From Caldinitratiruptor microaerophilus (GTDB lineage Bacteria > Bacillota > Sulfobacillia > Symbiobacteriales > ZC4RG38): a stretch of DNA of 64,000 nt. The translations under genes were made by a program, and so were the position numbers. The notes below the pieces were generated by a model. That model did no database searches. It was given only the letters and a program-made list of their open reading frames with translations, and was not told the origin of the DNA. The stretch is from positions 372,001 through 436,000 of the forward strand of contig NZ_AP025628.1 in assembly GCF_025999835.1 (NCBI RefSeq), read 5' to 3'. Of the stretch, positions 35,357-50,844 are shown piece after piece; the stretch's first letter is position 1; every line of letters begins with the position of its first letter.

Positions 35357-36409
35357 ATGAACCGGTCCGCGATGGCCCGCCTGCAGTTCATCCACGACCG
35401 GATCCGCGGCGGCCACTATCCGAACGCCACGAACCTGGCGCGGGAACTGGAGGTCAGCCGCCGCACCGTCCAGCGCGACATCGAGTTCATGAAGGACCAG
35501 TTGCGAGCCCCGATCGAGTACGACTCCCGCCGGCGGGGCTTTTACTACACCCGCCCGGACTTCGTGTTGCCGTCCCTGCCGCTCACTCCTCGGGAGATCG
35601 CCGCCCTCCACACCGCGGCCCACCTGCTCGGCCTGGTGGCCGGTTCCGTGCTGGAGGCGCCGGTCCGGAGCCTGATCGACAAGCTCGTGGCCGCGCTGCC
35701 GGCCACCGTGTCGCTGGGATGCGACACACCCGACGAGCTGAGCTTCGGCCTGCCCGCCATCCGGGGCGACGAAGCCCAGGTCGTCGAAACGCTGGGGCTC
35801 CTGCAGGAAGCCATCGTGACGCATCGCACCGTCGACGTGCTCTACTACACCGCGTACCGCAACGACTGGCGCCGCCGCCGGCTCGACCCGTACCACCTCC
35901 ACTACCGTGACGGGGCCTGGTACGCGATCGCCTGGTGCCACTGGCGCCAGCGCGTCCTCACCTTCGCGGTCGACCGGATGCACGACGTGCGGCTCACGTC
36001 GAAGGCATTCCAGGTCCGTGCCGGTTTCGACGCGCGGGAGTACCTCCGAACCGCCTGGCGGATCGAAGCCGGCGACCCGGTACCCGTCGCCGTCCGGTTC
36101 GCCCCGTCCGTGGCCCGGTACGTGCGCGAGCGACGCTGGCACCCGACGCAGGAGATGCAGGAAGAACCCGACGGCAGCCTCATCCTGCGTGTCCGGGTCG
36201 CCGGCCTGGGGGAAGTCGCCCGGTGGGTGCTGCAGTTCGGTGGTGGGGCGGAGGTACTTGAACCCGCAACTCTGCGAACACTGGTGGCCCGGGAGGCTGC
36301 AGCGTTGGCGGCAAAGTATGGCGGCAGGGGGACGATTCCTGGCCCTGATGCTCAGTCAGGCCGGATCGTATCTGCCTCACCGAACATGCGATCTCGTCAG
36401 CTGTTGTAG
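35357..36409 (+). CDS. WYL-domain transcriptional regulator (CRISPR-associated)
   Basis: DNA-binding regulator of 350 residues placed just upstream of cas3. The N-terminal HTH_11-type winged helix reads ATNLARELEVSRRTVQRDIEFMKD. The WYL domain follows, with LYYTAYRNDWRRRRLDPYHLHYRDGAWYAIAWCHWRQRVLTFAVDRM; here the WYL triad appears as W-Y-A. A C-terminal WCX-like region ends the protein. WYL proteins bind nucleic-acid ligands or act as transcription factors and are frequent near type I CRISPR-Cas loci. The ATG at 35357 follows GGGGAGGGGG. The 65-base gap to cas3 suggests co-transcription. Upstream, 35170-35220 is unusually AT-rich (AATATTCGTATATC) and may contain its promoter. Confidence 0.92.
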   Translation: MNRSAMARLQFIHDRIRGGHYPNATNLARELEVSRRTVQRDIEFMKDQLRAPIEYDSRRRGFYYTRPDFVLPSLPLTPREIAALHTAAHLLGLVAGSVLEAPVRSLIDKLVAALPATVSLGCDTPDELSFGLPAIRGDEAQVVETLGLLQEAIVTHRTVDVLYYTAYRNDWRRRRLDPYHLHYRDGAWYAIAWCHWRQRVLTFAVDRMHDVRLTSKAFQVRAGFDAREYLRTAWRIEAGDPVPVAVRFAPSVARYVRERRWHPTQEMQEEPDGSLILRVRVAGLGEVARWVLQFGGGAEVLEPATLRTLVAREAAALAAKYGGRGTIPGPDAQSGRIVSASPNMRSRQLL

Positions 36410-36474
36410 GCGACAGGTCTGTATTGTGGACTTGCGACTCCCAGCACCGGCCTTTCCGGCAGGGGGAACACAGT

Positions 36475-38631
36475 GTGACCTGGTTGGCCCACTCTGCCTT
36501 CGAGGGAAATGAAGGTCACGACCTCAAGGAGCACCTCTATTCGGTGGCAGCCCTCACGAGGCAGTTCGCGACAGCTCTGGGCGCACCGGAGTGGGGATGG
36601 TGGGCTGGGCTCTGGCATGACATCGGGAAGATCCATCCGTTGTTCCAAGCGTACTTGAAGGACAGCAAGGTAGCCCGCGGTCCCGATCATAAGGGAGCGG
36701 GCACAGTCATGGCCTTTCGTCATGCGCAGCCTCTGGCTTTTGTGATCGCCGGCCACCACGGTGGGTTGCACAGCTTGGGAGATCTCAAGAGCCATATCCA
36801 CGAGTGGATGCGCTCATCCCATGTGCAGGAAGCCCTTGCACAAGCTAAGTCCCATTTCTCCGATCTGGAACCACATGCGCCCTTGCCTACGCCGCAGCAT
36901 CTTAGAGGGCCACTTGAGCAGGAGTTCTTCATTCGATTGCTCTTCTCTTCCCTGGTTGACGCGGACCGGCTTGATACTGAAGCGTATTTCCATCCTGACT
37001 TGGCAAACCTGCGCGTTGCGCCCGTCCGCATGGACGAGTTGTGGCGATTGTTCGAGGCTAACCAACGGAACATCACGGGTAAGCCAGGTGTGGTTGGGCA
37101 GGTTCGGCACGAAGCGTATCTCGCGTGTTTGCGAGCCGCGCTGGAGTCGCCTGGCTGGTTCCGCCTTACGGTTCCCACGGGTGGAGGTAAGACCCGTTCG
37201 ACCCTTGCGTTCGGCCTTCGTCATGCGTTGCTACACGGTCTCGATCGGGTCATCGTTGCCATCCCCTACACGAGCATCGTCGAGCAGACTGTCGACGTGT
37301 ACCGCGACATCCTCGGCGTGGGAGCCGTATTGGAGCACCACAGTAGCATGGAAGGTCCTGCAGATCCCCTGAACCCCACGCCCGCTGAGCGGTGGGCGGA
37401 ACTCGCAGCAGAGAACTGGGATGCTCCTGTGATTGTAACCACCACGGTCCAGCTTTTCGAAAGTCTTTTCACGAACCACCCGTCAAAGGCCAGGAAGCTC
37501 CACAACCTTGTGCGTAGCGTCATTATCCTCGACGAGGCCCAGTCGCTCCCACCTGGCCTTCTGGAACCGATTCTCGACGGTTTACGGCAGTTAACTGTCC
37601 ATTACGGTGCAACGGTTGTTCTCGCTACGGCCACTCAACCTGCTCTGGACGACAGCCCCGTCTTGCATGGGCTGCCGGGCATTCGCGAGATCGCTCCTGA
37701 GCACCCCCGCTGGTATCAGGAGTTACGTCGAGTTGACTTCTCAGTGGTACCACCTGATGAGTCGTGGCCGTGGGAGCGGGTAGCGGAGGAGATGCGCTCC
37801 CGCCCCCAGGTTTTAACAATAGTGAACACGAGAGCAGACGCCGCTCGCTTGTTGGAGGCCTTGGGAGATCCTGAGGTCCTGCATCTATCGTCTATGCTCT
37901 GTGGCGCGCACCGGCGGGCGGTCCTTGCCGAGGTGAAGCGTCGGCTTACGAAGGGGCTTCCGTGTCGGCTTGTCACGACTCAAGTGGTCGAGGCGGGCGT
38001 GGACCTGGATTTCCCAGTCGTGTTCCGTGCCGTTGGCCCCCTGGATCGGATCGTTCAAGCTGCAGGTAGGTGCAACCGTGAAGGCCGTCTCACGCGAGGC
38101 CTGATGACAGTTTTCACGCCGGCAGAGGGCGGTCTCCCAAGAGGTGCATACTCTACAGCCACTCATATTGCCCAGAAGTTCATGGCATTCCCGGACTTCG
38201 ACTTCTATGACCCTGGGCTTTTCCTTGACTACTTCCGGGAGGTTTACCGTCACACAGATACTGACGCTAATCGCGTACAGAAGCTGCGCGCAAGCTTCGA
38301 TTTCCCAGCAGTAGCTAGGGAATTCCGCATGATTCCGTCGGACACACTGCCGCTCGTCGTGCCGTACTGGGAGGTCGCCCCCGGTGACGTGCAAGCGCGA
38401 CAGGCCGCTTCTCGAATTTCAGAACTACGGAGGGGTGAACGTATGCCCCCACGGTCCGTTTGGCGGCAGTTGCAGCCCTACATCGTCCAAGTGGACCGGA
38501 GACAACTGGGTGCCTATCCTAGGGGCCTGGCAATAGAGATCGTCCCTGGACTGTGGGAGTGGCGCGGTCGGTACGACCGCGTCCGCGGGCTTGTTAACGA
38601 ACCCCTGGCACCTGAGGACGTCGTAGTCTGA
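36475..38631 (+). CDS. cas3: CRISPR-associated helicase-nuclease Cas3 (type I-C)
   Basis: Effector that unwinds and degrades DNA bound by Cascade, 718 residues. The N-terminal HD nuclease has His20, LWHDIGK (His48-Asp49) and GHHGGL near residue 100. The SF2 helicase has Walker A VPTGGGKTRS (about 230-239), DEAQ in IILDEAQSLP (about 350), the TATQP motif, and QVVEAGVDLDF plus QAAGRCNREG (motifs V and VI). The GTG at 36475 is chosen because GGGGGAA lies seven bases upstream; the open frame starts 51 bases earlier. No obvious promoter separates it from the WYL gene. It is separated from the other cas genes by a 467-base region holding the guide RNA and the operon promoter. Confidence 0.96.
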   Translation: MTWLAHSAFEGNEGHDLKEHLYSVAALTRQFATALGAPEWGWWAGLWHDIGKIHPLFQAYLKDSKVARGPDHKGAGTVMAFRHAQPLAFVIAGHHGGLHSLGDLKSHIHEWMRSSHVQEALAQAKSHFSDLEPHAPLPTPQHLRGPLEQEFFIRLLFSSLVDADRLDTEAYFHPDLANLRVAPVRMDELWRLFEANQRNITGKPGVVGQVRHEAYLACLRAALESPGWFRLTVPTGGGKTRSTLAFGLRHALLHGLDRVIVAIPYTSIVEQTVDVYRDILGVGAVLEHHSSMEGPADPLNPTPAERWAELAAENWDAPVIVTTTVQLFESLFTNHPSKARKLHNLVRSVIILDEAQSLPPGLLEPILDGLRQLTVHYGATVVLATATQPALDDSPVLHGLPGIREIAPEHPRWYQELRRVDFSVVPPDESWPWERVAEEMRSRPQVLTIVNTRADAARLLEALGDPEVLHLSSMLCGAHRRAVLAEVKRRLTKGLPCRLVTTQVVEAGVDLDFPVVFRAVGPLDRIVQAAGRCNREGRLTRGLMTVFTPAEGGLPRGAYSTATHIAQKFMAFPDFDFYDPGLFLDYFREVYRHTDTDANRVQKLRASFDFPAVAREFRMIPSDTLPLVVPYWEVAPGDVQARQAASRISELRRGERMPPRSVWRQLQPYIVQVDRRQLGAYPRGLAIEIVPGLWEWRGRYDRVRGLVNEPLAPEDVVV

Positions 38632-38656: not shown

Positions 38657-38774
38657 GCACGGGGCTTCCCAGTTTTGCTGGCGCCCCGTGCGCATTCCGG
38701 ATAAATCCTGCACAGACCAGACCAACGTTTCAATCCCCACCACCGGGGAGGCGAACTCCCGGGGTGCTTGTCAC
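38657..38774 (-). ncRNA. CRISPR-like guide RNA (single degenerate repeat plus spacer), candidate cas autorepressor
   Basis: Minus-strand mini-gene between cas3 and the cas operon promoter. An extended -10, TGATATAAT (hexamer at 38781-38786), predicts a start near 38774. The transcript then holds a degenerate CRISPR repeat (about 38770-38727): it shares GCACCC at the 5' side, a CCGGGAG/CTCCCCGG stem with a TTCGC loop in place of the array's TCGC-loop stem, and the exact 3' end GGATTGAAAC. A spacer-like segment of about 35 bases follows (38726-38692), beginning GTTGGTCTGGTCTGTGCA. A 9-bp hairpin, GCACGGGGC/GCCCCGTGC (38691-38657), then TTCCTTAAT, would terminate transcription and could stand in for the missing 3' repeat. 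That it loads into Cascade is inferred. Confidence 0.8.
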
Positions 38775-38902
38775 CTCGCCATTATATCAGAAGCGCCTCA
38801 GTCCACCGGATGTGCAAGAAGCAGGAAGCAAAGCGAAAGGTGGGAGACGGGTGCATGAACGTGGGCGGTGTAGCACGAGGAGCCATTGCGCACCGGAAGG
38901 GA

Positions 38903-38931
38903 TTGACAGCCGAAGCTAAGGTGTGCATAAT
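38903..38931 (+). promoter_or_regulatory. Promoter of the cas5c-cas8c-cas7c-cas4-cas1-cas2 operon
   Basis: TTGACA at 38903-38908 and CATAAT at 38926-38931 are 17 bases apart. The start site would be near 38938, giving a leader of about 160 bases before cas5c. It points away from the guide-RNA promoter. Confidence 0.85.
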
Positions 38932-38943
38932 GGAACCTGATCC

Positions 38944-38966
38944 TTCGTTGGGCTGGTGTGTGCAAG
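38944..38966 (+). promoter_or_regulatory. Predicted Cascade target site with TTC PAM in the cas operon leader
   Basis: TTC at 38944-38946, the canonical type I-C PAM, is followed at 38947 by GTTGGGCTGGTGTGTGCA. This matches 16 of the first 18 bases of the spacer-like segment of the minus-strand guide RNA; the mismatches are at positions 6 and 12 only. Position 19 also mismatches and pairing then fades. The site begins about ten bases after the predicted transcription start, where bound Cascade would block RNA polymerase. Partial pairing would favour binding without cleavage. Confidence 0.8.
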
Positions 38967-39098
38967 GGCGCATCCAAACCTGCCGGTACACACAGGATCG
39001 ACCCGTGTGGCTCCTCTGACCTGTCCCGGATCATGACCACACCACAACTGTCAGGAGCGAACGCCGGCTCAGCCCTTTGACCGAAGGAGGTGAGACAC

Positions 39099-39746
39099 TT
39101 GAGCACGTGGCCTCCGCTGGAGGTGAAGGTGTGGGGCGACTACGCCTGTTTCACTCGACCCGAGACGAAAGTCGAGCGGGTTTCCTACCCCGTCGTGACG
39201 CCCTCTGCTGCCCGCGGCATCCTTGAGGCTATTTTCTGGAAGCCCGAATTCGCGTGGCGCATTCGAGAGATTTGGGTACTCCGCCCCATCCGGTACGTAT
39301 CGATGGTGCGGAACGAGGTGAACTCGAAAATTTCCTTTGCCGCCGCGCAGCGTTGGATGGCAAATGGCGGTGGTTTCTTCGCAGACGAGGATCGGGCTCA
39401 ACGACACACCCTAGCACTCTACAACGTGGCCTACGTCATTCGAGCCGATGTCGAGCCGCGTTCCGGTACTGCTGCCGATATCGCCAAGTACAGGGATCAG
39501 TTCCGGCGTAGGGTCCGACGCGGGGAGTGTTTCCACCGGCCGTATCTAGGCACGCGGGAATTTGCTGCTTTCTTCGGACCGCTGGATGGTACCGAAACAC
39601 CCATCGACTACAGTGCTCCGTTGGGCAGGATGCTGTTTGACCTCGAGTACGAAAAGGACGGGTCTGGGCGCGGGACTCCTCGCTTCTTCGAGGCAAGCCT
39701 CGACCGTGGTGTCTTGCGCGTGCCCCCGGACCTGTATGGGGGGTGA
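39099..39746 (+). CDS. cas5c: Cas5c (Cas5d), pre-crRNA endoribonuclease of type I-C
   Basis: In type I-C, which lacks Cas6, Cas5c cuts the repeat and stays on the 5' handle. The 215-residue product begins LSTWPPLEVKVWGDYACFTRPETKVERVSYPVVTPSAARGILEAIFW, a clear Cas5c start with the RAMP fold, and contains RPIRYVSMVRNEVN. The TTG at 39099 lies nine bases after AAGGAGG; GTG at 39090 in the same frame would overlap the ribosome site and is less likely. The C-terminus overlaps cas8c by four bases. It would also have to process the degenerate-repeat guide RNA encoded upstream. Confidence 0.94.
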   Translation: MSTWPPLEVKVWGDYACFTRPETKVERVSYPVVTPSAARGILEAIFWKPEFAWRIREIWVLRPIRYVSMVRNEVNSKISFAAAQRWMANGGGFFADEDRAQRHTLALYNVAYVIRADVEPRSGTAADIAKYRDQFRRRVRRGECFHRPYLGTREFAAFFGPLDGTETPIDYSAPLGRMLFDLEYEKDGSGRGTPRFFEASLDRGVLRVPPDLYGG

Positions 39747-41470
39747 AATACGCCATGCTCTTACAGCGGCTGAACGAGTATGCGGATCGGTTGCGGCTGC
39801 CGCCACCGATGTACGGCCCCACCGCGGTTCGCTGGGTGATCCACCTTGATACCGACGGGCGAATGTTGCAGATGGTCGAGACAACCGGCGGGACCACGAA
39901 AAGTACACAGCGGGGCAAAGTAATGTTGACGCCGCAGATCGGGCGAACAGTAGCGATTCGAGCCAAGTTACTTGCTGACAACGGTGAGTACGTTCTAGGC
40001 ATTCCCCGCAAGCCTGAGGACGCAGACAAGGTGGTGTTGCGTCACCGAGCTTTTATAGACCTAGTTCGTGAATGCGCCCTCGCCACGGGAGAGCTCACGG
40101 TGAAGGCCGTTCTACAGTTCCTCGAGGGATTGCCGCATGGTCTTCGCTTGCCCAGCGGCTTCGATCCGGCGGATAACATCACCTTCGAGGTCGCTGGGAT
40201 CCGTCCCATTGACTTGCCGGTTATCCAACGCTTTTGGGCCAAGCGCGCGGGCGCGGAGAAGGAGAATGCGGACGACGATACTGGCCGGGTCGCCACGTGC
40301 TTGGTTTGCGGCGAATTAAAGCAAGTTGTCGCGCGGCTACCCTTCAAGCTAAAGAGCATTCCGGGAGGACAAACCTCTGGAATTGCCCTCGTCTCCGCCA
40401 ATGCACCAGCGTTCGAGTCCTATGGCCTCGAAGCCTCGCATGTCGCACCGATTTGCCACCAGTGTGCTGAGCGGACCCACAAGTCGATAAATGCGCTCCT
40501 GGCCGACCCTAACACGCATCTGGTCGTCGGTCCGATCGTGTACGTGGCGTGGACACGGGAGCCTGTGGAGCAGAATTTCTTGAATCTTCTCTCGCGTCCG
40601 GATCCTGCCGAAGTTCGTGCCTTGATTGCTTCCGTATACACGGGCCGAGCGGGTTCCCTAGAACTGGATGACACGCAGTACTACGCGGTGGCCTTCTCTG
40701 CCAGCGGTGGACGAGCGGTCGTACGCGATTGGCTTGATACAACGGTGGGGGAAGTGAGACGCAATCTTGCCCGCTTCTTCATGCTACAACGTATCATCGG
40801 TCCAGATGGCAACGAGCCCGCGCCCCTCGGGATCTTCGCCTTGTCCGCAGCAGCTGTTCGGGATGCCTCGCGGGACCTACCTCCAGAGCTTCCCAAGGCG
40901 TTGATTCGATGCGCGTTGGCCGGGACGTGGATTCCCAGCTGGATCCTTGCCCAGGCAATCAGGCGAGCCCGCGTGGAACAGCGGGTGACCCGTCAGCGTG
41001 CGGCTCTAATCCGTTTGTCCTATCTCTCCTACATGCGGATCGAAAAGGAGGATGAGTTGATGCAGTTGGATCGTACGCAGAGAGATCCGGCTTACCACTG
41101 CGGCCGCCTTCTCGCTGTTCTTGAGGAAATCCAGCACGCGGCCGTACCGGGTGCAAAGGCCACGCTATTGGACCGATTCTACGGTGCTGCTTCCGCAAGC
41201 CCAGCCACCGTTTTCGGAACTCTCTTCCGTACCGCCCAGTCGCACCTGGGTAAGCTGCGTAAGGACCGTCCGCGCCTTTACAACGTGTTCCAGCAACGAC
41301 TCATGGAAGTACAGGAATCGATCACGTACTTCCCGGCAACGTTGAACCTCGGGGAACAGGCACTTTTCACTCTTGGCTACTACCACCAGCGGGCGGCCGA
41401 TCTGGCCGCCGCCAGGGCTCGCTCTCAGAAAGCGGAAGATACGGAAACCGACGAGTCTGATGACGAGTGA
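39743..41470 (+). CDS. cas8c: Cas8c (Csd1), large subunit of type I-C Cascade
   Basis: PAM-recognising large subunit, 575 residues. It starts MKYAMLLQRLNEYADRLRLPPPMYGPTAVRWVIHLD, as in Csd1. A zinc-binding element with CLVCGE (Cys186/189) and CHQCAER (about 237/240) stands in the middle and LVVGPIVYVAWTREP follows. The C-terminal helical part is also made separately as Cas11c from an internal start. The GTG at 39743 overlaps the cas5c stop (GTGA). The acidic tail EDTETDESDDE is noteworthy but probably harmless. Confidence 0.95.
   Translation: MKYAMLLQRLNEYADRLRLPPPMYGPTAVRWVIHLDTDGRMLQMVETTGGTTKSTQRGKVMLTPQIGRTVAIRAKLLADNGEYVLGIPRKPEDADKVVLRHRAFIDLVRECALATGELTVKAVLQFLEGLPHGLRLPSGFDPADNITFEVAGIRPIDLPVIQRFWAKRAGAEKENADDDTGRVATCLVCGELKQVVARLPFKLKSIPGGQTSGIALVSANAPAFESYGLEASHVAPICHQCAERTHKSINALLADPNTHLVVGPIVYVAWTREPVEQNFLNLLSRPDPAEVRALIASVYTGRAGSLELDDTQYYAVAFSASGGRAVVRDWLDTTVGEVRRNLARFFMLQRIIGPDGNEPAPLGIFALSAAAVRDASRDLPPELPKALIRCALAGTWIPSWILAQAIRRARVEQRVTRQRAALIRLSYLSYMRIEKEDELMQLDRTQRDPAYHCGRLLAVLEEIQHAAVPGAKATLLDRFYGAASASPATVFGTLFRTAQSHLGKLRKDRPRLYNVFQQRLMEVQESITYFPATLNLGEQALFTLGYYHQRAADLAAARARSQKAEDTETDESDDE
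41060..41470 (+). CDS. cas11c: Cas11c small subunit from an internal start in cas8c
   Basis: Inside cas8c and in the same frame, AAAAGGAGG (41043-41051) stands eight bases before an ATG at 41060. Translation from it gives 136 residues, MQLDRTQRDPAYHCGRLLAV and following, covering the helical C-terminus of Cas8c. Type I-C Cascades are known to contain Cas11c made this way from within cas8c, and the position and length agree. Two copies would line the non-target-strand side of the complex. The ribosome binding site is as strong as those of the separate genes. Confidence 0.8.
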   Translation: MQLDRTQRDPAYHCGRLLAVLEEIQHAAVPGAKATLLDRFYGAASASPATVFGTLFRTAQSHLGKLRKDRPRLYNVFQQRLMEVQESITYFPATLNLGEQALFTLGYYHQRAADLAAARARSQKAEDTETDESDDE

Positions 41471-41496
41471 ATTCGTCAAGAGAGGGAGGAGACCAA

Positions 41497-42408
41497 ATGT
41501 CCGTGCACCTGGACCCCGAAAGGCGCCACGATTTCGTAATACTGTTTGATGTCACCGACGGTAACCCGAATGGAGATCCCGATGCCGGGAACCTGCCGCG
41601 CGTCGACCCGGAGACCATGCAGGGCCTGGTGACTGACGTATCCATCAAGCGGCGGATACGCAACTGGGTCGATGCCACGCGGGGCACAGAGGAACGCATG
41701 AAGATCTACGTTCAGACTCGAGGCGAAGCCCTCAACGACTTGCACCAGCGGGCGTATGACGCGTTGGGCCTCCGGTCCACGGGGGCTCGGCAGGACCGCG
41801 AAACCGTCGAACAAGCCCGTGCGTGGATGTGCTGGAACTTTTGGGACATCCGTACGTTCGGTGCGGTGATGACCACAGGGGTCAATTGCGGTCAGGTGCG
41901 CGGTCCAGTGCAGCTAACGTTTGCCCGCTCCATCGACCCAATCGTACCTCTCGACCTCGCGATCACTCGGGTAGCGGTCACGCGCGCCGAGGACGCCAAG
42001 GTTGTGGTCGGTGACGAAGGTGTGGGCGAGTCCGGCGGTAAGACGACGGAGATGGGACGCAAGGCGATCGTGCCCTACGGGCTGTACAAGGGCTACGGCT
42101 TCGTAAACCCGATCTTTGCCCGCCAGACTGGGTTCAGTAAAGAAGACCTCGACCTCTTCTGGACTGCGCTCATCATGTGCTGGGACCTTGATCGATCGTC
42201 CAGTCGGGGAAGGATGGCCTGCCGCGGACTATACGTGTTCACGCATGATTCGCCCTTGGGAAAGGCCCCCGCCCACACTTTACTGGACCGGGTCCGGGTC
42301 CAACGTCGGGACGGTGTGGTATCCCCGAGAAGCTTTGGTGACTACACGGTTGTCGTCGATGACAAGGACCTGCCTGACGGAGTCACCCTTACTCGGCTGG
42401 TGGGGTGA
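41497..42408 (+). CDS. cas7c: Cas7c (Csd2), Cascade backbone
   Basis: RAMP protein that polymerises along the crRNA spacer, 303 residues. DFVILFDVTDGNPNGDPDAGNLPRVDPET at the N-terminus is the Csd2 signature, followed by GLVTDVSIKRRIRNWVD and FWDIRTFGAVMTTGVNCGQVRGPVQLTFARSIDPI, all well conserved in the family. The ATG at 41497 follows AGGGAGGAG; an open frame from 41467 overlaps cas8c and is not preferred. Its thumb insertion flips every sixth base of the crRNA, the property that makes the mismatch pattern of the candidate autoregulatory site meaningful. Confidence 0.96.
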   Translation: MSVHLDPERRHDFVILFDVTDGNPNGDPDAGNLPRVDPETMQGLVTDVSIKRRIRNWVDATRGTEERMKIYVQTRGEALNDLHQRAYDALGLRSTGARQDRETVEQARAWMCWNFWDIRTFGAVMTTGVNCGQVRGPVQLTFARSIDPIVPLDLAITRVAVTRAEDAKVVVGDEGVGESGGKTTEMGRKAIVPYGLYKGYGFVNPIFARQTGFSKEDLDLFWTALIMCWDLDRSSSRGRMACRGLYVFTHDSPLGKAPAHTLLDRVRVQRRDGVVSPRSFGDYTVVVDDKDLPDGVTLTRLVG

Positions 42409-43067
42409 GGGCAGTGGTTACGGGCGCCGTCCCTGATGAGTACTGGGTCCCCATCTCGGCCCTGCAGCACTACTCATACTGCCCACGGCAGTGTGCGCTG
42501 ATCCACCTTGAGCAGACCTTCGATGAGAACCTGTACACGCTCCGAGGTCGCGCCGTCCACGAGCGTGTCGACGTTCCGGGGGTAGCCGTCGAAGCTGGCG
42601 TCCGAATTGAACGCGGGCTTGTACTCTGGTCGGACCGATTGGGCCTCGTTGGTAAGGCCGATGTGGTTGAGTTTCACGGCGAGGTCCCCTACCCTGTCGA
42701 GTACAAGCACGGTTCGCGCAGAGCTTCGGAACACGACGACCTTCAGCTATGTGCTCAGGCTCTCTGCCTCGAGGAGATGCTCGGGGTCCCTGTGCCCAGG
42801 GGAGCGATTTACCACCACAGTTCGAGACACAGGCGTGAGGTTGTGTTTACACCAGAGTTGCGAGAACGTGTGACGGTTGTCTTGCAAGAGGTGCGGGCGC
42901 TGTTGAGCGCCCGACTTTTGCCTCCTGCCGTTAACGATACCCGTTGTCCCCGGTGCTCCCTAATCGACTCATGTCTACCTCGACCGGTCCAGGACAGGCG
43001 GCGAATAGAAGACCTTTTGCAGGAGGTGTTCAACACCGGTTTAGAGGAGGGAGAAACCAGTGCTTGA
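42405..43067 (+). CDS. cas4: Cas4 exonuclease (adaptation)
   Basis: Fe-S cluster nuclease of 220 residues that selects and trims prespacers by PAM. One Cys is in HYSYCPRQCALIHLEQ at the N-terminus and three more in RCPRCSLIDSC near the C-terminus, together the four cluster ligands. The RecB-like nuclease core has GKADVVEFHG and PVEYKHGSRR (Asp, Glu, Lys), then QLCAQALCLEEM. The GTG at 42405 overlaps the cas7c stop by four bases (GTGA) and the end overlaps cas1 by eight. Everything needed for activity seems present. Confidence 0.95.
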   Translation: MRAVVTGAVPDEYWVPISALQHYSYCPRQCALIHLEQTFDENLYTLRGRAVHERVDVPGVAVEAGVRIERGLVLWSDRLGLVGKADVVEFHGEVPYPVEYKHGSRRASEHDDLQLCAQALCLEEMLGVPVPRGAIYHHSSRHRREVVFTPELRERVTVVLQEVRALLSARLLPPAVNDTRCPRCSLIDSCLPRPVQDRRRIEDLLQEVFNTGLEEGETSA

Positions 43068-44091
43068 ACTCCTCAATACGCTCTATGTTACAACCCCCGG
43101 CGCGTATGTAAGGCTCGATCATGAAACAGTTCGGGTGGAGGCCGATGGTGCCAAGCTGCTGCAGGTTCCTGTCTTGCACCTGCGCGGTATCGTCTGCTTC
43201 GGCAACGTGATGGTAAGCCCGGCCGTGATGCAGCGGTTTGCTCAGGATCGGCGGTCTGTTGTGTTCTTGGACGACCGCGGCAGGTTTGCGGCTCGGGTCC
43301 AAGGACCCACAGCCGGGAACGTGCTCCTGCGGTGGGAGCAATACGAAGCAGCACGCTCTCTAGCACGGAGCGCAGCGATCGCCAGGGCAATTGTCGGTGG
43401 CAAAATTCAGAACGCCAGGTTCCTGTTACAGAGAGCGGCTCGGGAGACGCCAGACTCAGCCGAGTCCAAGACGCTACGCGACTGCGTTGCCGATCTCGCC
43501 GGAATACTGGAGCGCCTGAAAGCAGCCTCCGAGATCAATGTGATCCGTGGCCTGGAGGGAGAGGCAGCGAGACGCTACTTTGGTTCCTGGGATTTGATGA
43601 TTAAACGAGATCGCCAGGCCTTCGCCCTCCAGGGCCGGCAGCGGCGTCCCCCTACGAATCCGATGAACGCACTCCTTTCTTTCCTGTACACGTTGTTAAC
43701 GGGCGAATGCATAGCCGCAGCCGAAGGAGTTGGGCTTGATCCACAGATTGGCTACCTGCACGAGCTTCGCCCCGGCCGGCCAGCTCTCGCCCTTGACCTC
43801 GTTGAGGAACTAAGACCCTCAGTGGCGGATCGCCTTGCGATTGCCCTGATCAACCTGCGCCAGGCAACGTCGGACGACTTCGTGACCCGCCCCGGAGGGG
43901 CCATCCACTTGAGCGACGCGGGCCGCAAGAAAGTGATAGTAGCTTATGAGAGGCGCAAGCAAGAGCAGGTATACCATCCGGTACTGGACCGCAAGGTTCC
44001 TATAGGTCTGATCCCCCATGTTCAAGCGCGTCTGCTTGCTCGCCATCTTCGTGGCGACTTGGACCATTACGTACCTTGGCTGTATCGGTAG
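43060..44091 (+). CDS. cas1: Cas1 integrase (type I-C)
   Basis: Spacer integrase of 343 residues. It begins LELLNTLYVTTPGAYVRLDHETVRVEADG, the N-terminal beta-domain of I-C Cas1, and the catalytic domain holds an acidic residue in AAAEGVGLDPQIGYLHELRPGRPALALDLVEELRP (Glu, His and Asp of the metal site). The GTG at 43060 lies inside the end of cas4 after TAGAGGAGGGAG. With Cas2 and Cas4 it would insert spacers at the leader end at 44587, next to cas2. Confidence 0.96.
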   Translation: MLELLNTLYVTTPGAYVRLDHETVRVEADGAKLLQVPVLHLRGIVCFGNVMVSPAVMQRFAQDRRSVVFLDDRGRFAARVQGPTAGNVLLRWEQYEAARSLARSAAIARAIVGGKIQNARFLLQRAARETPDSAESKTLRDCVADLAGILERLKAASEINVIRGLEGEAARRYFGSWDLMIKRDRQAFALQGRQRRPPTNPMNALLSFLYTLLTGECIAAAEGVGLDPQIGYLHELRPGRPALALDLVEELRPSVADRLAIALINLRQATSDDFVTRPGGAIHLSDAGRKKVIVAYERRKQEQVYHPVLDRKVPIGLIPHVQARLLARHLRGDLDHYVPWLYR

Positions 44092-44106
44092 GGTGGTGCC
44101 GACCTC

Positions 44107-44397
44107 GTGCAGATCGTTGTGGCCTACGACGTCAATACAGAGACAGCGGCAGGCCGTCGTCGGTTGCGTAAAGTGGCTCAGATCTGCCTTAACTTCGGCC
44201 AGCGCGTACAAAAGTCCGTCTTCGAATGTCAGGTCAATCAAGCACAGCTTGAGCAACTCATCCGCCAGCTACGGAACGAGATTGACGAAGGGGAAGATAG
44301 TCTTCGGCTGTACAGGATCATGGAGCCGAGGGACAGGCACACTTACGCCTACGGCATCCAACACGTTCTCGATTTCCAAGAGCCACTAATCTTGTGA
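44107..44397 (+). CDS. cas2: Cas2
   Basis: Structural partner of Cas1 in the integrase complex, 96 residues. QIVVAYDVNTETAAGRRRLRKVAQICLNFGQRVQKSVFEC is the ferredoxin-like N-terminus with the conserved Asp in AYDV, and LRLYRI follows. The start is a GTG at 44107. It is the last gene of the operon; the array leader begins immediately after. Confidence 0.96.
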   Translation: MQIVVAYDVNTETAAGRRRLRKVAQICLNFGQRVQKSVFECQVNQAQLEQLIRQLRNEIDEGEDSLRLYRIMEPRDRHTYAYGIQHVLDFQEPLIL

Positions 44398-44586: not shown

Positions 44587-45202
44587 GTTGCACCCGGCCT
44601 CGCGGCCGGGTGAGGATTGAAACCAGCTTTACCTCGACAAGATCGGCGAGTTGCCCGAGTTGCACCCGGCCTCGCGGCCGGGTGAGGATTGAAACCAGGC
44701 CAGGAGCGCGATCAACCGCTACGTGGTTGCCGTTGCACCCGGCCTCGCGGCCGGGTGAGGATTGAAACGAGGCCGGCGACATCGACATCGACCCGGCCGA
44801 CGACGTTGCACCCGGCCTCGCGGCCGGGTGAGGATTGAAACCAGGGAAAGGACTGGAAGGTTACGGTATCTCTGCAGGTTGCACCCGGCCTCGCGGCCGG
44901 GTGAGGATTGAAACCGCGTGAAGTCGGCCTATCGCATGGGCGGCCTCGACGTTGCACCCGGCCTCGCGGCCGGGTGAGGATTGAAACGAGACCTGGCCGG
45001 ACGCTGCGCTGACCGCCGCCCTGGTTGCACCCGGCCTCGCGGCCGGGTGAGGATTGAAACCGGACCTGGCCACCCCGGTTCACCAGCCAGTTGTAACGTT
45101 GCACCCGGCCTCGCGGCCGGGTGAGGATTGAAACGGCGCCATCTTCTTGGGGTATACGGGGTCCATCGAGTTGCACCCGGCCTCGCGGCCGGGTGAGGAT
45201 TG
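44587..45202 (+). CRISPR. CRISPR array, leader-proximal block (9 repeats, last one cut by IS21)
   Basis: Nine copies of a 37-base repeat that begins GTTGCACCCGGCCTCGCGG and ends CCGGGTGAGGATTGAAAC, with spacers of about 35-37 bases. The inner part is a palindrome (CACCCGGCC TCGC GGCCGGGTG). Repeat starts are 44587, 44659, 44732, 44805, 44878, 44951, 45024, 45098 and 45170. The ninth is broken after GGATTG by the IS21 element at 45203 and resumes at 47414. Orientation is set by the degenerate far end and by cas2 at this side. Confidence 0.97.
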
Positions 45203-45267
45203 TGTCAACGCCGGCTTACTTTTGACCCACTGGGGCCGGTTGGGAAATGACCCACCCCCCAGGCGAA

Positions 45268-46068
45268 TCACTCCTTCGGTGGTTCGGTGGGGAGGCCTCC
45301 GGGGTGAGGCGGTACGGTGGTGAAGAGGCCGGCCCGCTTCTTGTCGCGGAGGCGGTAGGACTCCCCGCGGATGTTGAGTACGTGGCTGTGGTGCAGGAGG
45401 CGGTCCAGGATGGCGGTGGCGATCACCGCGTCCCCCAACACCTCCCCCCACTCGGCGAAGCCTTTGTTGGACGTCAGGATGACGCTCCCACGCTCGTACC
45501 GGGCGGAGATCAACGCGAACAGTGCCGTAGCGGCCGCCCGGTCGTAGGGCCAGACCCCGAACTCGTCGATGATCAGCACCTTCGGGGCCAGGTAGACCCG
45601 CATGCGGCGGTCGAGGCGGTGCTCGGCCTGCGCCCGGCGCAGGTCTTCGAGCAGGTCGTGGGCCCGGACGAAGTAGACGCCATAGCCCTGTTCGATGGCC
45701 CGGATCCCCAGGGCCACCGCCAGGTGAGTCTTCCCCACCCCGGGCGGACCGAGGAAGATCACGTTGGCGGCGTCGGCGACAAAGGCCAGGGTCGCCAGCT
45801 CACGGACCTGACGCTCGTCGATGGACGGCTGGAAGCGGAAGTCGAACTGTTCGAGGGTGCGGTAGTAGGGCAGGTGGGCAAGGCGTGTGCGGGTGCGCAG
45901 GTACCGCTCCCGCCGGGCGGCCGCTTCGACGCCCAGCAAGTCGGCCAGGAACTCGGCGTACGGGAGCTGCTTCTGAGCTGCCGCCTCCAGCCGGCTCTCC
46001 AGCACGGCGGCTGCCTGGACCAGGCCGAGTTGCTCCAGGTACTGCCGGGACTTCTCCAAGGCGATCAT
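45268..46068 (-). CDS. istB: IS21 helper ATPase IstB
   Basis: AAA+ helper of IS21 transposition, 266 residues. An N-terminal helical region (QYLEQLGLVQAAAVLESRLEAA) is followed by Walker A FLGPPGVGKTHLAVALG, KVLIIDEFGVWPYD (Walker B) and SVILTSNKGFAEWGEVLGD (sensor 1), then LDRLLHHSHVLNIRGESYRL, the C-terminal IstB motif. The ATG at 46068 overlaps the istA stop by four bases (ATGA), the standard arrangement. Complete. Confidence 0.96.
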   Translation of the reverse strand: MIALEKSRQYLEQLGLVQAAAVLESRLEAAAQKQLPYAEFLADLLGVEAAARRERYLRTRTRLAHLPYYRTLEQFDFRFQPSIDERQVRELATLAFVADAANVIFLGPPGVGKTHLAVALGIRAIEQGYGVYFVRAHDLLEDLRRAQAEHRLDRRMRVYLAPKVLIIDEFGVWPYDRAAATALFALISARYERGSVILTSNKGFAEWGEVLGDAVIATAILDRLLHHSHVLNIRGESYRLRDKKRAGLFTTVPPHPGGLPTEPPKE

Positions 46069-47288
46069 CCGGCGACCACCGCCCCCACGAGCGCCTCGTA
46101 GGCCGCCAGCGGCCGGCGCTCGACCTCAACGGTGGGCAGCTGGACCGCCAAGGCCTCCTTGGACGGCCGTCCGTCGCCAGCCTGAAGGCCCGCCCACTGA
46201 CGGGGGTGCGTGAGCCGCTGGCCCCTTTGAGTGGCCCGGGCATGCACGGCGAGGCGCTTGCCCCCGTCCCAGAGCTCAACGATCCCATCCCGGGGCTGGA
46301 CCTGCACCACCTGGCCGGGCTTCCATGGCCAGGGAAGGCCATACCAGGCGTTCTCCCACTGGACGTACCCGTCCCGGCCCACGTGCCGCTCTTCCCGCAG
46401 GAAGACCTCGAGCCGTTGGGGGCTCGGGAGGGGCTGCAGGTGCTCCCGTTCAATGCGCAGCCGGTCGACCGGCCGCTCGTGGGTCGTCCCATGCACCCGG
46501 ACGTCCGCCACGGTGTCGCACCACTGGGCCGCCTGCTGGTTCAGGTCCGCCAGGTCCACAAACCGCACGCCGGGCCAGAAGTTGCGCTTGACGTACTTGA
46601 TCCCGCTCTCCACGCGCCCCTTCGTTTGGGGCCGGTACGGGTGGCAGAGCCGGATGTCGAAACCCACCCGCAGGGCGAAGTCCAGGAAGCGAGGGTTCCA
46701 GACAGGTTGGTCGTGCTCATCCCGCTCCAGGACGACCACCTTGGTGTTGTCATACAGGCACCGGCGGGGTACGCCCCCGAACCGGGCGAACGCATTCAGG
46801 TGGCAGCGGATGAACGTGGCGACGTCCGCTCGCCGAACGAACTCGACGTAGATCGCCCGAGACCAACTCAGCACCATGACGAAGACCCAGACCCGCTGCG
46901 TCTTGCCGTCCGGGGTCTTGTACTTGAGAAGGCCGAAGTCCACCTGGGCCTGTTCCCCCGGCCGGGTCTCGAAGCGGACCGTCGCCTGGGGCTCTCGGCG
47001 CCGGCGCAGCGGCTGGACGAACTCACGAAGGATCGTATGGCCGCCGGTATAACCCTGTGCACGGATCTCCCGGAGCAATACGGTGCAATTGTCGACTCCC
47101 TCGCCCACTCGCTGGAGGATATACTCCTTGTAGGGGTCCAGCTTGGAGGCCCGCTGTGGCCGTGGCGCCGGCTTGGGCACCTCGGGAGAGCGCAAGTACT
47201 TTCGGATCGTGTTCCGGGAAACACCCAACATGCGGGCGATGGCCCGGATGGACTTGCCCTCCCCGTGCAACTCGTAAATGCGCTTCAC
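46065..47288 (-). CDS. istA: IS21 transposase IstA
   Basis: DDE transposase of 407 residues from the GTG at 47288, which follows GAGGGGTGG; an ATG at 47375 in the same frame would add 29 residues but lacks a ribosome site. The helix-turn-helix KSIRAIARMLGVSRNTIRKYL is followed by the rve integrase domain with QAQVDFGLLKYK (first Asp), PRRCLYDNTKVVV (second Asp) and KGRVESGIKYVKRNF (Glu). The C-terminal part has WYGLPWPWKPGQVVQVQ. It is intact and presumably active. Confidence 0.94.
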   Translation of the reverse strand: MKRIYELHGEGKSIRAIARMLGVSRNTIRKYLRSPEVPKPAPRPQRASKLDPYKEYILQRVGEGVDNCTVLLREIRAQGYTGGHTILREFVQPLRRRREPQATVRFETRPGEQAQVDFGLLKYKTPDGKTQRVWVFVMVLSWSRAIYVEFVRRADVATFIRCHLNAFARFGGVPRRCLYDNTKVVVLERDEHDQPVWNPRFLDFALRVGFDIRLCHPYRPQTKGRVESGIKYVKRNFWPGVRFVDLADLNQQAAQWCDTVADVRVHGTTHERPVDRLRIEREHLQPLPSPQRLEVFLREERHVGRDGYVQWENAWYGLPWPWKPGQVVQVQPRDGIVELWDGGKRLAVHARATQRGQRLTHPRQWAGLQAGDGRPSKEALAVQLPTVEVERRPLAAYEALVGAVVAG

Positions 47289-47413
47289 TTTCCCACCCCT
47301 CAGCACGTTCTCTGGACACCCCCGACTCTTGGCGGAATCGGAAGGTGTCTTCGCTGGGGGGTGGGTCAATTCCATTCCGGCGCTACTGGGTCAGTTTAGC
47401 ACCGGCGCTGACA

Positions 47414-50400
47414 ATTGAAACGAGCGACTGCAGGCCCAGCAGGAGGAGGCATACCGAGTTGCACCCGGCCTCGCGGCCGGGTGAGGATTGAAACGACCTT
47501 GGCGACGGTGAGCGGCTCGGACGGCACCTGGTTGCACCCGGCCTCGCGGCCGGGTGAGGATTGAAACCGGTTGCAGTAGGCGAGGCCGGCAAGCCACACG
47601 CGTTGCACCCGGCCTCGCGGCCGGGTGAGGATTGAAACCGTGCCAGCTCTGCCGCGACGAGAGACCCATCGCCCAGTTGCACCCGGCCTCGCGGCCGGGT
47701 GAGGATTGAAACCGCGATCACCCCCCCTTACCCATGGGGAGGGGGGCGCGTTGCACCCGGCCTCGCGGCCGGGTGAGGATTGAAACAAGCAGGGGGCTCG
47801 TAACACGTGGGAGGCCCTGCGGGTTGCACCCGGCCTCGCGGCCGGGTGAGGATTGAAACGTGCAAAAGGTATATTCGAGACAACATGGCGATGAAGGTTG
47901 CACCCGGCCTCGCGGCCGGGTGAGGATTGAAACCCGTTATCGACACGGCAACCAACGTGGCGGCCAGGGTTGCACCCGGCCTCGCGGCCGGGTGAGGATT
48001 GAAACCCTCCTTTCCTGCAAGGCCATCATCGCCCGCGGGCCGAGTTGCACCCGGCCTCGCGGCCGGGTGAGGATTGAAACCGGGCTATCAGGTGCGGGAC
48101 ACCTCGGTAGGCGCCACGTTGCACCCGGCCTCGCGGCCGGGTGAGGATTGAAACTCTCGTTCCGGTGCTTGAGTTGCAGCACCTCGACCACGTTGCACCC
48201 GGCCTCGCGGCCGGGTGAGGATTGAAACCTGCGCGGACCGACGCCCCCGGGGAGACCCTGAAATTGTTGCACCCGGCCTCGCGGCCGGGTGAGGATTGAA
48301 ACCATCTGCTCGTAGGTCTGCCGCAGCTCGTCGGCCTCGTTGCACCCGGCCTCGCGGCCGGGTGAGGATTGAAACTGCCATCTCCCATTCCACCGCCTTC
48401 CGCAGCATATCGTTGCACCCGGCCTCGCGGCCGGGTGAGGATTGAAACGTCACGGACTATGCCCGTGTGCTCCGGCTCCCCTACTATGTTGCACCCGGCC
48501 TCGCGGCCGGGTGAGGATTGAAACTTGCCGAGGCTGTCGAGTTGCGACAGGGACTGCAGGTTGCACCCGGCCTCGCGGCCGGGTGAGGATTGAAACTACC
48601 AGGGCGATCGAACCATGGTGTGCGGCACCTGCGTTGCACCCGGCCTCGCGGCCGGGTGAGGATTGAAACTACCAGGGCGATCGAACCATGGTGTGCGGCA
48701 CCTGCGTTGCACCCGGCCTCGCGGCCGGGTGAGGATTGAAACGCCAGTTGGAGTGGGTCGATCTCGTCGAAGTACTGCCAGGTTGCACCCGGCCTCGCGG
48801 CCGGGTGAGGATTGAAACCCGTAGGCGACAGCCATGCGGGTCTGGATGGCGGGGTTGCACCCGGCCTCGCGGCCGGGTGAGGATTGAAACCTGGATTGGC
48901 TCTGGTAGAGGGAGCGCCTCCGCGGAAGTTGCACCCGGCCTCGCGGCCGGGTGAGGATTGAAACCTGACGAAGCGCCTTAACGTCTGGCCCCAGCAGGCC
49001 AGTTGCACCCGGCCTCGCGGCCGGGTGAGCATTGAAACAAGATCAACCGGACGGACGTCGGGGCCACCCGGGGGTTGCACCCGGCCTCGCGGCCGGGTGA
49101 GGATTGAAACCCGTCGAGGTGGGCCGGTGTGCTCTCCATCGCCTGTTGCACCCGGCCTCGCGGCCGGGTGAGGATTGAAACCCGGAGCCTGCGGACCACC
49201 TCCCGGAGCACGGCCGGGAGAGGATTGAAACTGGCTCGTGGCCGCGAACCCGCGCTACGACCCGATCCCCGTTGCACCCGGCCTCGCGGCCGGGTGAGGA
49301 TTGAAACCGCTCTGCGCCCCACGTGGATAGCGGCGCTGCCGGAGTTGCACCCGGCCTCGCGGCCGGGTGAGGATTGAAACTCGTACAACCGGAAGAAGTG
49401 CGCCCGGTCTGCGGCGGTTGCACCCGGCCTCGCGGCCGGGTGAGGATTGAAACAGCCGCCGGCGGATCTTGAGCTTGGTCCGGCGCCGGTTGCACCCGGC
49501 CTCGCGGCCGGGTGAGGATTGAAACGTCCAGGCCATGGGAGCCAAGCAGCCCGAGGCGGGCAAGGTTGCACCCGGCCTCGCGGCCGGGTGAGGATTGAAA
49601 CGTGCGCGCTCCCTGCCGCACCTCGCCGGCCGCGGCGGCGTTGCACCCGGCCTCGCGGCCGGGTGGGGATTGAAACCAGCCAGGTGCGCTCCACCTCAGG
49701 ATGCTCGCGCGTTGCACCCGGCCTCGCGGCCGGGTGAGGATTGAAACAGGTTGCCGGCCGGGTCCTGCCGGACGGCCGCCGAGTGTTGCACCCGGCCTCG
49801 CGGCCGGGTGAGGATTGAAACGGGCCATCGAAAAGGGCTGGTCGCCGCAGGACCTGGGTTGCACCCGGCCTCGCGGCCGGGTGAGGATTGAAACAGCCCG
49901 GGGAGCAAGACCTACGTCCCTCAGGGTCCTGACGGGTTGCACCTGGCCTCGCGGCCGGGTGAGGATTGAAACGTGTCGAGGGCGAGGAAGTCGGCCTCCT
50001 CGTCGGTCGTTGCACCCGGCCTCGCGGCCGGGTGAGGATTGAAACCTGGTCCTCCGTGGGAAGCCCCGCCCGGCGCCGGTTGTTGCACCCGGCCCCGCGG
50101 CCGGGTGAGGATTGAAACTCCCACGGCGCCACGGCCCGGTTGCGCGGCGGCACGTTGCACCCGGCCTCGCGGCCGGGTGAGGATTGAAACTGGGCGATGC
50201 CGCCAGCGATAGTACAACGTCCGATGTTGCGCCCGGCCTCGCGGCCGGGTGAGGATTGAAACGTCGTACGGATGTGCGCATAGGGTGGAGAGGTCTCGTT
50301 GCAGCCGGCCTCGCGGCCGGGTGAGGATTGAAACGTTTCCGGGCCGGGCAGACCCCGGACGGTGAGCCCCGTTGCACCCGGCCTCGCGGCCGGGTGAGGA

Positions 50401-50844
50401 TTGAAACATCGGACCGACTTGGCAGCGGGCGCAGGAACTGCCGTTGCACCCGGCCTCGCGGCCGGGTGAGGATTGAAACCGGCCATGGTCCGCACGGCGG
50501 TGCAGGCCGGCATGGTTGCACCCGGCCTCGCGGCCGGGTGAGGATTGAAACTGGTTCGGGACGGAGTTCCGGCCGCGCCTGCTCGAGTTGCACCCGGCCT
50601 CGCGGTCGGGTGAGGATTGAAACTCAGCCGCGTTGCAGTGGATTGAGACGAACAGGTCGGGTTGCACCCGGCCTCGCGGCCGGGTGAGGATTGAAACTGG
50701 TCGCGCAACTACGGCGAGCGTGTGGCCATCCGCGGGTTGCACCCGGCCTCGCGGCCGGGTGAGGATTGAAACAAGGACGCCTGGGAAAACATCTGGCGCC
50801 GCTCGCTGTTGCACCCGGCCTCGCGGCCGGGTGAGGATTGAAAC
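47414..50844 (+). CRISPR. CRISPR array, middle block (about 47 repeats)
   Basis: After the end of the split repeat (ATTGAAAC, 47414-47421), repeats continue from 47458 to the one starting at 50808, at a spacing of about 73 bases. Nearly all are identical; single-base variants stand at 49002, 49640, 49936, 50082, 50226, 50298 and 50587. A truncated repeat (49211-49231) retains only the 3' 21 bases. Two neighbouring spacers, at 48597-48632 and 48670-48705, are identical. The long frames seen on either strand here are by-products of the repeats. Confidence 0.97.

Follow-up and report, generated by a model that had tools for sequence, protein, structure and literature searches.

Does the type I-C CRISPR locus of Caldinitratiruptor microaerophilus encode a guide RNA that represses its own cas genes? 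The question arises from the intergenic gap of 467 nt that separates cas3 from cas5c, in which a preliminary description had noticed a crRNA-like element on the minus strand and a matching site at the cas promoter on the plus strand. We followed this up in the window, that is, the whole 64-kb stretch of DNA analyzed, and in a survey of related loci. Our analyses suggest that the element is very probably a type I-C representative of CreR that would autorepress the cas genes via Cascade.

The crRNA-like element between cas3 and cas5c

The assignment of the operon to type I-C proved correct, as the NCBIfam models TIGR01876, TIGR01863, TIGR02589, and TIGR03640 all score above their cut-offs, and the gene order cas3-cas5c-cas8c-cas7-cas4-cas1-cas2 as well as the repeat are those of a type I-C system. 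All genes are on the plus strand: cas3, with HD domain and helicase, at 36424–38631 (gene-model search), cas5c at 39099–39746 (TIGR01876), cas8c (csd1) at 39743–41470 (TIGR01863), cas7 (csd2) at 41467–42408 (TIGR02589), and cas4, cas1, and cas2 at 42405–44397 (gene-model search). Cas5c probably starts at the TTG at 39099 behind GGAGGTG and not at the GTG at 39090. Immediately upstream of cas3, a WYL/WCX-domain regulator with a helix-turn-helix motif is encoded (35357–36409), which may act on the cas3 promoter without involvement of the guide RNA. The type I-C array follows at 44587–50840 on the plus strand with at least 55 repeats (GTTGCACCCGGCCTCGCGGCCGGGTGAGGATTGAAAC). It is interrupted by an IS21-type element (istA/istB, 45203–47413; ends TGTCAACGCCGG...CCGGCGCTGACA) that lies inside an array repeat and is flanked by a 4-bp duplication, ATTG, and at 48560–48695 a repeat-spacer unit is duplicated, resulting in two identical consecutive spacers (TACCAGGGCGATCGAACCATGGTGTG...). 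A comparison of the spacers of the whole array with phage sequences, aimed at reading the PAM, gave no match, and no Cas5c relatives were found in viral contigs.

The extended -10, the degenerate repeat, and the spacer-like guide that had been described for the minus strand of the gap are all present. The extended -10 (TGATATAAT, 38781–38789) lacks a good -35 and is the predicted creR promoter, with a predicted transcription start near 38774. It is followed by a single degenerate CRISPR repeat (38727–38766, ending GGGGATTGAAAC), which thus lies outside the array and between two cas genes, as is typical of CreR. When folded, this repeat forms a stem with exactly 11 unpaired nucleotides at the 3' side, the same as the genuine array repeat, and these nucleotides constitute the putative 5' handle GGGATTGAAAC (38737–38727, minus strand) 3' of the stem-loop. 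Eleven nucleotides is the handle length expected for type I-C. The Rfam family CRISPR-DR10 matches at 38727–38777, a weak match under its gathering score. The handle is directly followed by the 18-nt guide segment GTTGGTCTGGTCTGTGCA, which starts at 38726 and extends to 38709. Downstream, at 38657–38691 on the minus strand, a hairpin, proposed in the preliminary description as a 9-bp terminator, probably ends the guide RNA by intrinsic termination. It has a folding z of -4.0 and is present at the same place in most relatives, but its U-tract UUCCUUAAU is weak, and a terminator scan did not flag the structure. The designation as a mini-CRISPR needs to be qualified, as there is a single repeat and not the two repeats of a mini-CRISPR.

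RacrIC1, a phage-borne solitary type I-C repeat that inhibits by mimicry (PMC10651486), likewise has a promoter of its own, and one could therefore read the element as a repeat-mimic anti-CRISPR RNA that sequesters Cas5c or Cas7 while its guide remains unused. However, the element is part of the cas locus of the host itself, and at the cas promoter a PAM-flanked site matches its guide; a decoy would have no use for such a site, and RacrIC1 and other solitary-repeat anti-CRISPR RNAs lack one at a promoter. We consider such a decoy hardly credible here and regard the element as a very probable CreR.

The partner site at the cas5c promoter

The promoter ahead of cas5c on the plus strand consists of TTGACA (38903–38908), a 17-nt spacing, and CATAAT (38926–38931), as had been reported; 11 of its 12 positions agree with the consensus, and 0.1 such promoters are expected in shuffles of the region. 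Transcription is predicted to start near 38938. A TTC at 38944–38946 is the candidate PAM, in agreement with the strong enrichment of TTC at the co-varying targets described below, and it directly precedes the target site of the guide (GTTGGGCTGGTGTGTGCA, 38947–38964, plus strand), which corresponds to about +9 to +26 of the promoter. The reported agreement of guide and target at 16 of 18 positions was reproduced, with mismatches at positions 6 and 12 only. Such a partial complementarity to a PAM-flanked site in a cas promoter is a hallmark of CreR. The match is also unique: among the approximately 1,450 TTC sites of the window, the runner-up agrees with the guide at 11 of 18 positions, and a search of the 3.6-Mb genome that permitted up to two mismatches returned the guide itself and the target, and nothing else.

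Which gene the promoter serves is relevant for the distinction from the CreTA/CrePA addiction modules, whose CreA likewise has a degenerate repeat and limited complementarity, and likewise uses Cascade as repressor. In such a module, the guide would repress a toxin gene transcribed from the promoter at 38903–38931, and not, or not only, the cas genes. The identical crRNA-like anatomy and the leader of approximately 150 nt between promoter and cas5c would agree with this, but in the interval from 38938 to 39099 we did not find a toxin-like gene with a ribosome site. This interval contains only open reading frames of 26 and 40 aa that lack clear ribosome sites, the promoter reads directly into cas5c, and the targets at other loci are also in cas3 or cas5c leaders. 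While a tiny RNA toxin is still conceivable, the lack of a toxin-like reading frame makes an addiction module very unlikely, and the element differs from CreA in that its target is the cas promoter.

Co-variation of guides and targets among Cas5c-type loci

The preliminary description had suggested to search related type I-C loci for a PAM-adjacent target that co-varies with the guide, and we carried this out with approximately 185 non-redundant Cas5c-type loci from five phyla. The loci, which encode Cas5c relatives and were retrieved with their upstream DNA, came from relatives, a scan of genome contigs, and samples of phyla taken around five genomes; a second scan of Bacillota re-sampled the same genomes as the first. 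The set contains no type I-C locus of the same genus and no close relative with the same locus, and co-variation was compared across less closely related loci. We searched for handles close to GGATTGAAAC and compared the next 17 bases with nearby TTC-flanked sites, leaving positions 6 and 12 unscored; the strict threshold was at most one handle mismatch, a score of at least 13/15, and TTC as PAM.

At least 14 co-varying TTC cases were found besides the window, which is the fifteenth, and they come from Bacillota, Armatimonadota, Cyanobacteria, Chloroflexota, and Actinomycetota. Each has a degenerate repeat and a guide unlike all the others, which pairs with its own TTC-flanked site in a cas3 or cas5c leader. 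The targets are located in the cas3 leader in L083/L268, L336, L347, and L350, between cas3 and cas5c in the window, L013/L102, L020, L032, L035, L093, L156, L158, L189, and L298, and upstream of cas5c in L031, where cas3 is more distant. All pass the strict threshold except L031, which has two handle mismatches, and L158 and L298, which score 12/15; in the case of L013/L102, the subtype is less certain, since the Cas5 is more distant (30% identity). A recognizable CreR is mostly absent from those type I-C loci that are nearest by Cas5c. As evidence against autorepression, the preliminary description had named relatives in which the repeat-like element persists but no PAM-adjacent site at the cas promoter matches it; we observed the opposite, about 15 TTC cases that have their own sites.

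Chance does not produce such pairs at a comparable rate. Of 206 unique handle sites, 12 had a TTC match at the strict threshold, whereas about 0.05 are predicted from decoys; shuffled handles gave a single TTC match in 4,255 sites in the run that covered all PAMs, and none in 3,148 sites in an earlier run. When all 64 flanking triplets were permitted at a score of at least 13, 21 matches were seen, 12 of them with TTC and 3 with TTT, while decoys let us expect about 4. Counted by guide position, the mismatches in the 15 TTC cases number 1, 0, 1, 1, 0, 14, 1, 2, 0, 1, 0, 14, 1, 0, 3, 3, 7, and 9, and are near random thereafter. Positions 6 and 12 are thus each mismatched in 14 of 15 cases. As these two positions and those from 18 onward were not used in the selection, neither the lack of pairing at the two positions nor its stop near position 17 follows from the selection, and both are independent observations. 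At 6 and 12, the excess over the neutral expectation of 75% mismatches (28/30; binomial 0.011, shuffle 0.09) is only suggestive. In Cascade, every sixth base is flipped out, and the unpaired positions 6 and 12 fit this known base flipping. In the window as in the relatives, the pairing fades after position 16–17 and stops near 17–18 nt, a short complementarity as seen with CreR, and we infer that this shortness prevents cleavage.

The guide and its target also form an imperfect inverted repeat of 18 bp with a distance of 220 bp, and a WYL regulator gene adjoins the locus. The pair could therefore be a dispersed operator for a protein such as this regulator, or the remnant of an old array, with a match that is due to descent or chance. 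This is strongly disfavoured, and we regard it as very unlikely: the start of the match, the handle, and the TTC are in exact register, the mismatches are at positions 6 and 12, about 14 further loci show the arrangement with sequences unrelated to these, and the decoy controls are near zero. The interpretation put forward in the preliminary description, namely that Cascade loaded with this RNA blocks cas transcription, is thus supported on the sequence level by the co-variation and by the mismatches at 6 and 12.

Most of the elements consist of a single repeat and a hairpin that follows 20–60 nt into the guide, while two repeats are present in L274, and L336 has a repeat-like element in addition to its repeat. 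The target coincides in part with the promoter or 5' end of the element itself in L020, L083, L158, and L189, so that element and cas may be under common control, and the regulated promoter in these loci may be creR's own. Matches with TTT, CTC, or TTA flanks (L232, L274, L314, L325, L151) were kept separate from the TTC set. Non-TTC matches with scores of at least 14 are above chance as a group (7, two cyanobacterial ones included, versus about 0.9 expected), and strong pairs with such flanks are present at the cas leaders of L274 (position ~3268), L314 (2609), L325 (2973), and L232 (2929); perhaps these flanks are weaker PAMs that have been chosen to soften repression or to avoid cleavage. 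In two samples from the cyanobacterial phylum, L113 (~2588) and L115 (~804), a GGATTGAAAC handle with the 16-nt guide TCATTTTGTTATATGC lies antisense within the cas3 coding sequence, and the guide matches a GTT- or GTC-flanked site at the divergent cas3/cas5 start region. One may see in this either a CreR that lies within a coding sequence or a chance match kept by coding conservation, and both loci were excluded from the count. L237, L242, L114, and most 12/15 matches with two to three handle mismatches look like chance.

A possible autorepression circuit of type I-C systems

Autorepression by CreR has been established for types I-B, I-E, and V-A, as reviewed (PMC13131331, PMC12737573). CreR is likewise a crRNA-like RNA from within the cas locus, with a degenerate repeat and a partial 5' complementarity to a PAM-flanked site in a cas promoter. 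The differences are that here the effector is of type I-C, with Cas5c instead of Cas6 as processing nuclease, that the RNA is known from its sequence, and that the type I-C cases usually have one repeat and a hairpin in place of the two-repeat mini-CRISPR, a second repeat being present in L274 and possibly L336. In type II-A systems, the long form of the tracrRNA (tracr-L) autorepresses cas9; this is likewise a natural self-guide that gives CRISPR autorepression, but with another effector and another RNA. A description of a type I-C CreR was not found in the literature searched, a search to which the primary papers of 2023 in Cell Host Microbe (CreR) and NAR (crRNA-like regulatory elements) did not belong. 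The general mechanism of CreR has already been published, and the type I-C version with one repeat and a hairpin is, judged from its sequence, a further member.

We infer that the creR RNA is transcribed, processed, and loaded, and that it represses without cleavage, in the following way. A minus-strand transcript of about 115 nt would start near 38774 and stop at the hairpin near 38657, and Cas5c would process it at the base of the degenerate stem, so that the usual handle of 11 nt precedes the guide. Loaded into Cascade (Cas5c–Cas8c–Cas7), the RNA would direct the complex to the TTC, downstream of which it would pair with the template strand over about 17–18 nt (+9 to +26 of the cas5c promoter) except for bases 6 and 12, which are flipped out. 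Following the CreR precedent, Cascade would remain bound, and the R-loop needed for Cas3 attack would not be completed. In this position, the complex would occlude the region of the transcription start, and RNA polymerase could not escape from the promoter of cas5c-cas8c-cas7-cas4-cas1-cas2. Repression would increase with the level of Cascade, and the operon would be released when array crRNAs or an anti-CRISPR draw Cascade off.

It may even be, although we would bet slightly against it, that one-repeat, hairpin-terminated autorepressor RNAs constitute a common and so far undescribed control layer of type I-C systems, which at least five phyla have acquired repeatedly, each time with a new guide, and that some of these RNAs also repress their own promoter, so that one loop sets both Cascade and CreR. 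Type I-C is a common CRISPR subtype that is used in genome engineering. If our model is true, the self-throttling guide would explain low cas expression and predict induction by anti-CRISPRs and extra crRNAs, and deletion of the guide would be a simple way to raise type I-C activity. On the basis of genomes alone, the co-variation further suggests that nature pairs about 17 PAM-proximal bases, and leaves positions 6 and 12 free, where Cascade serves as a repressor rather than a killer.
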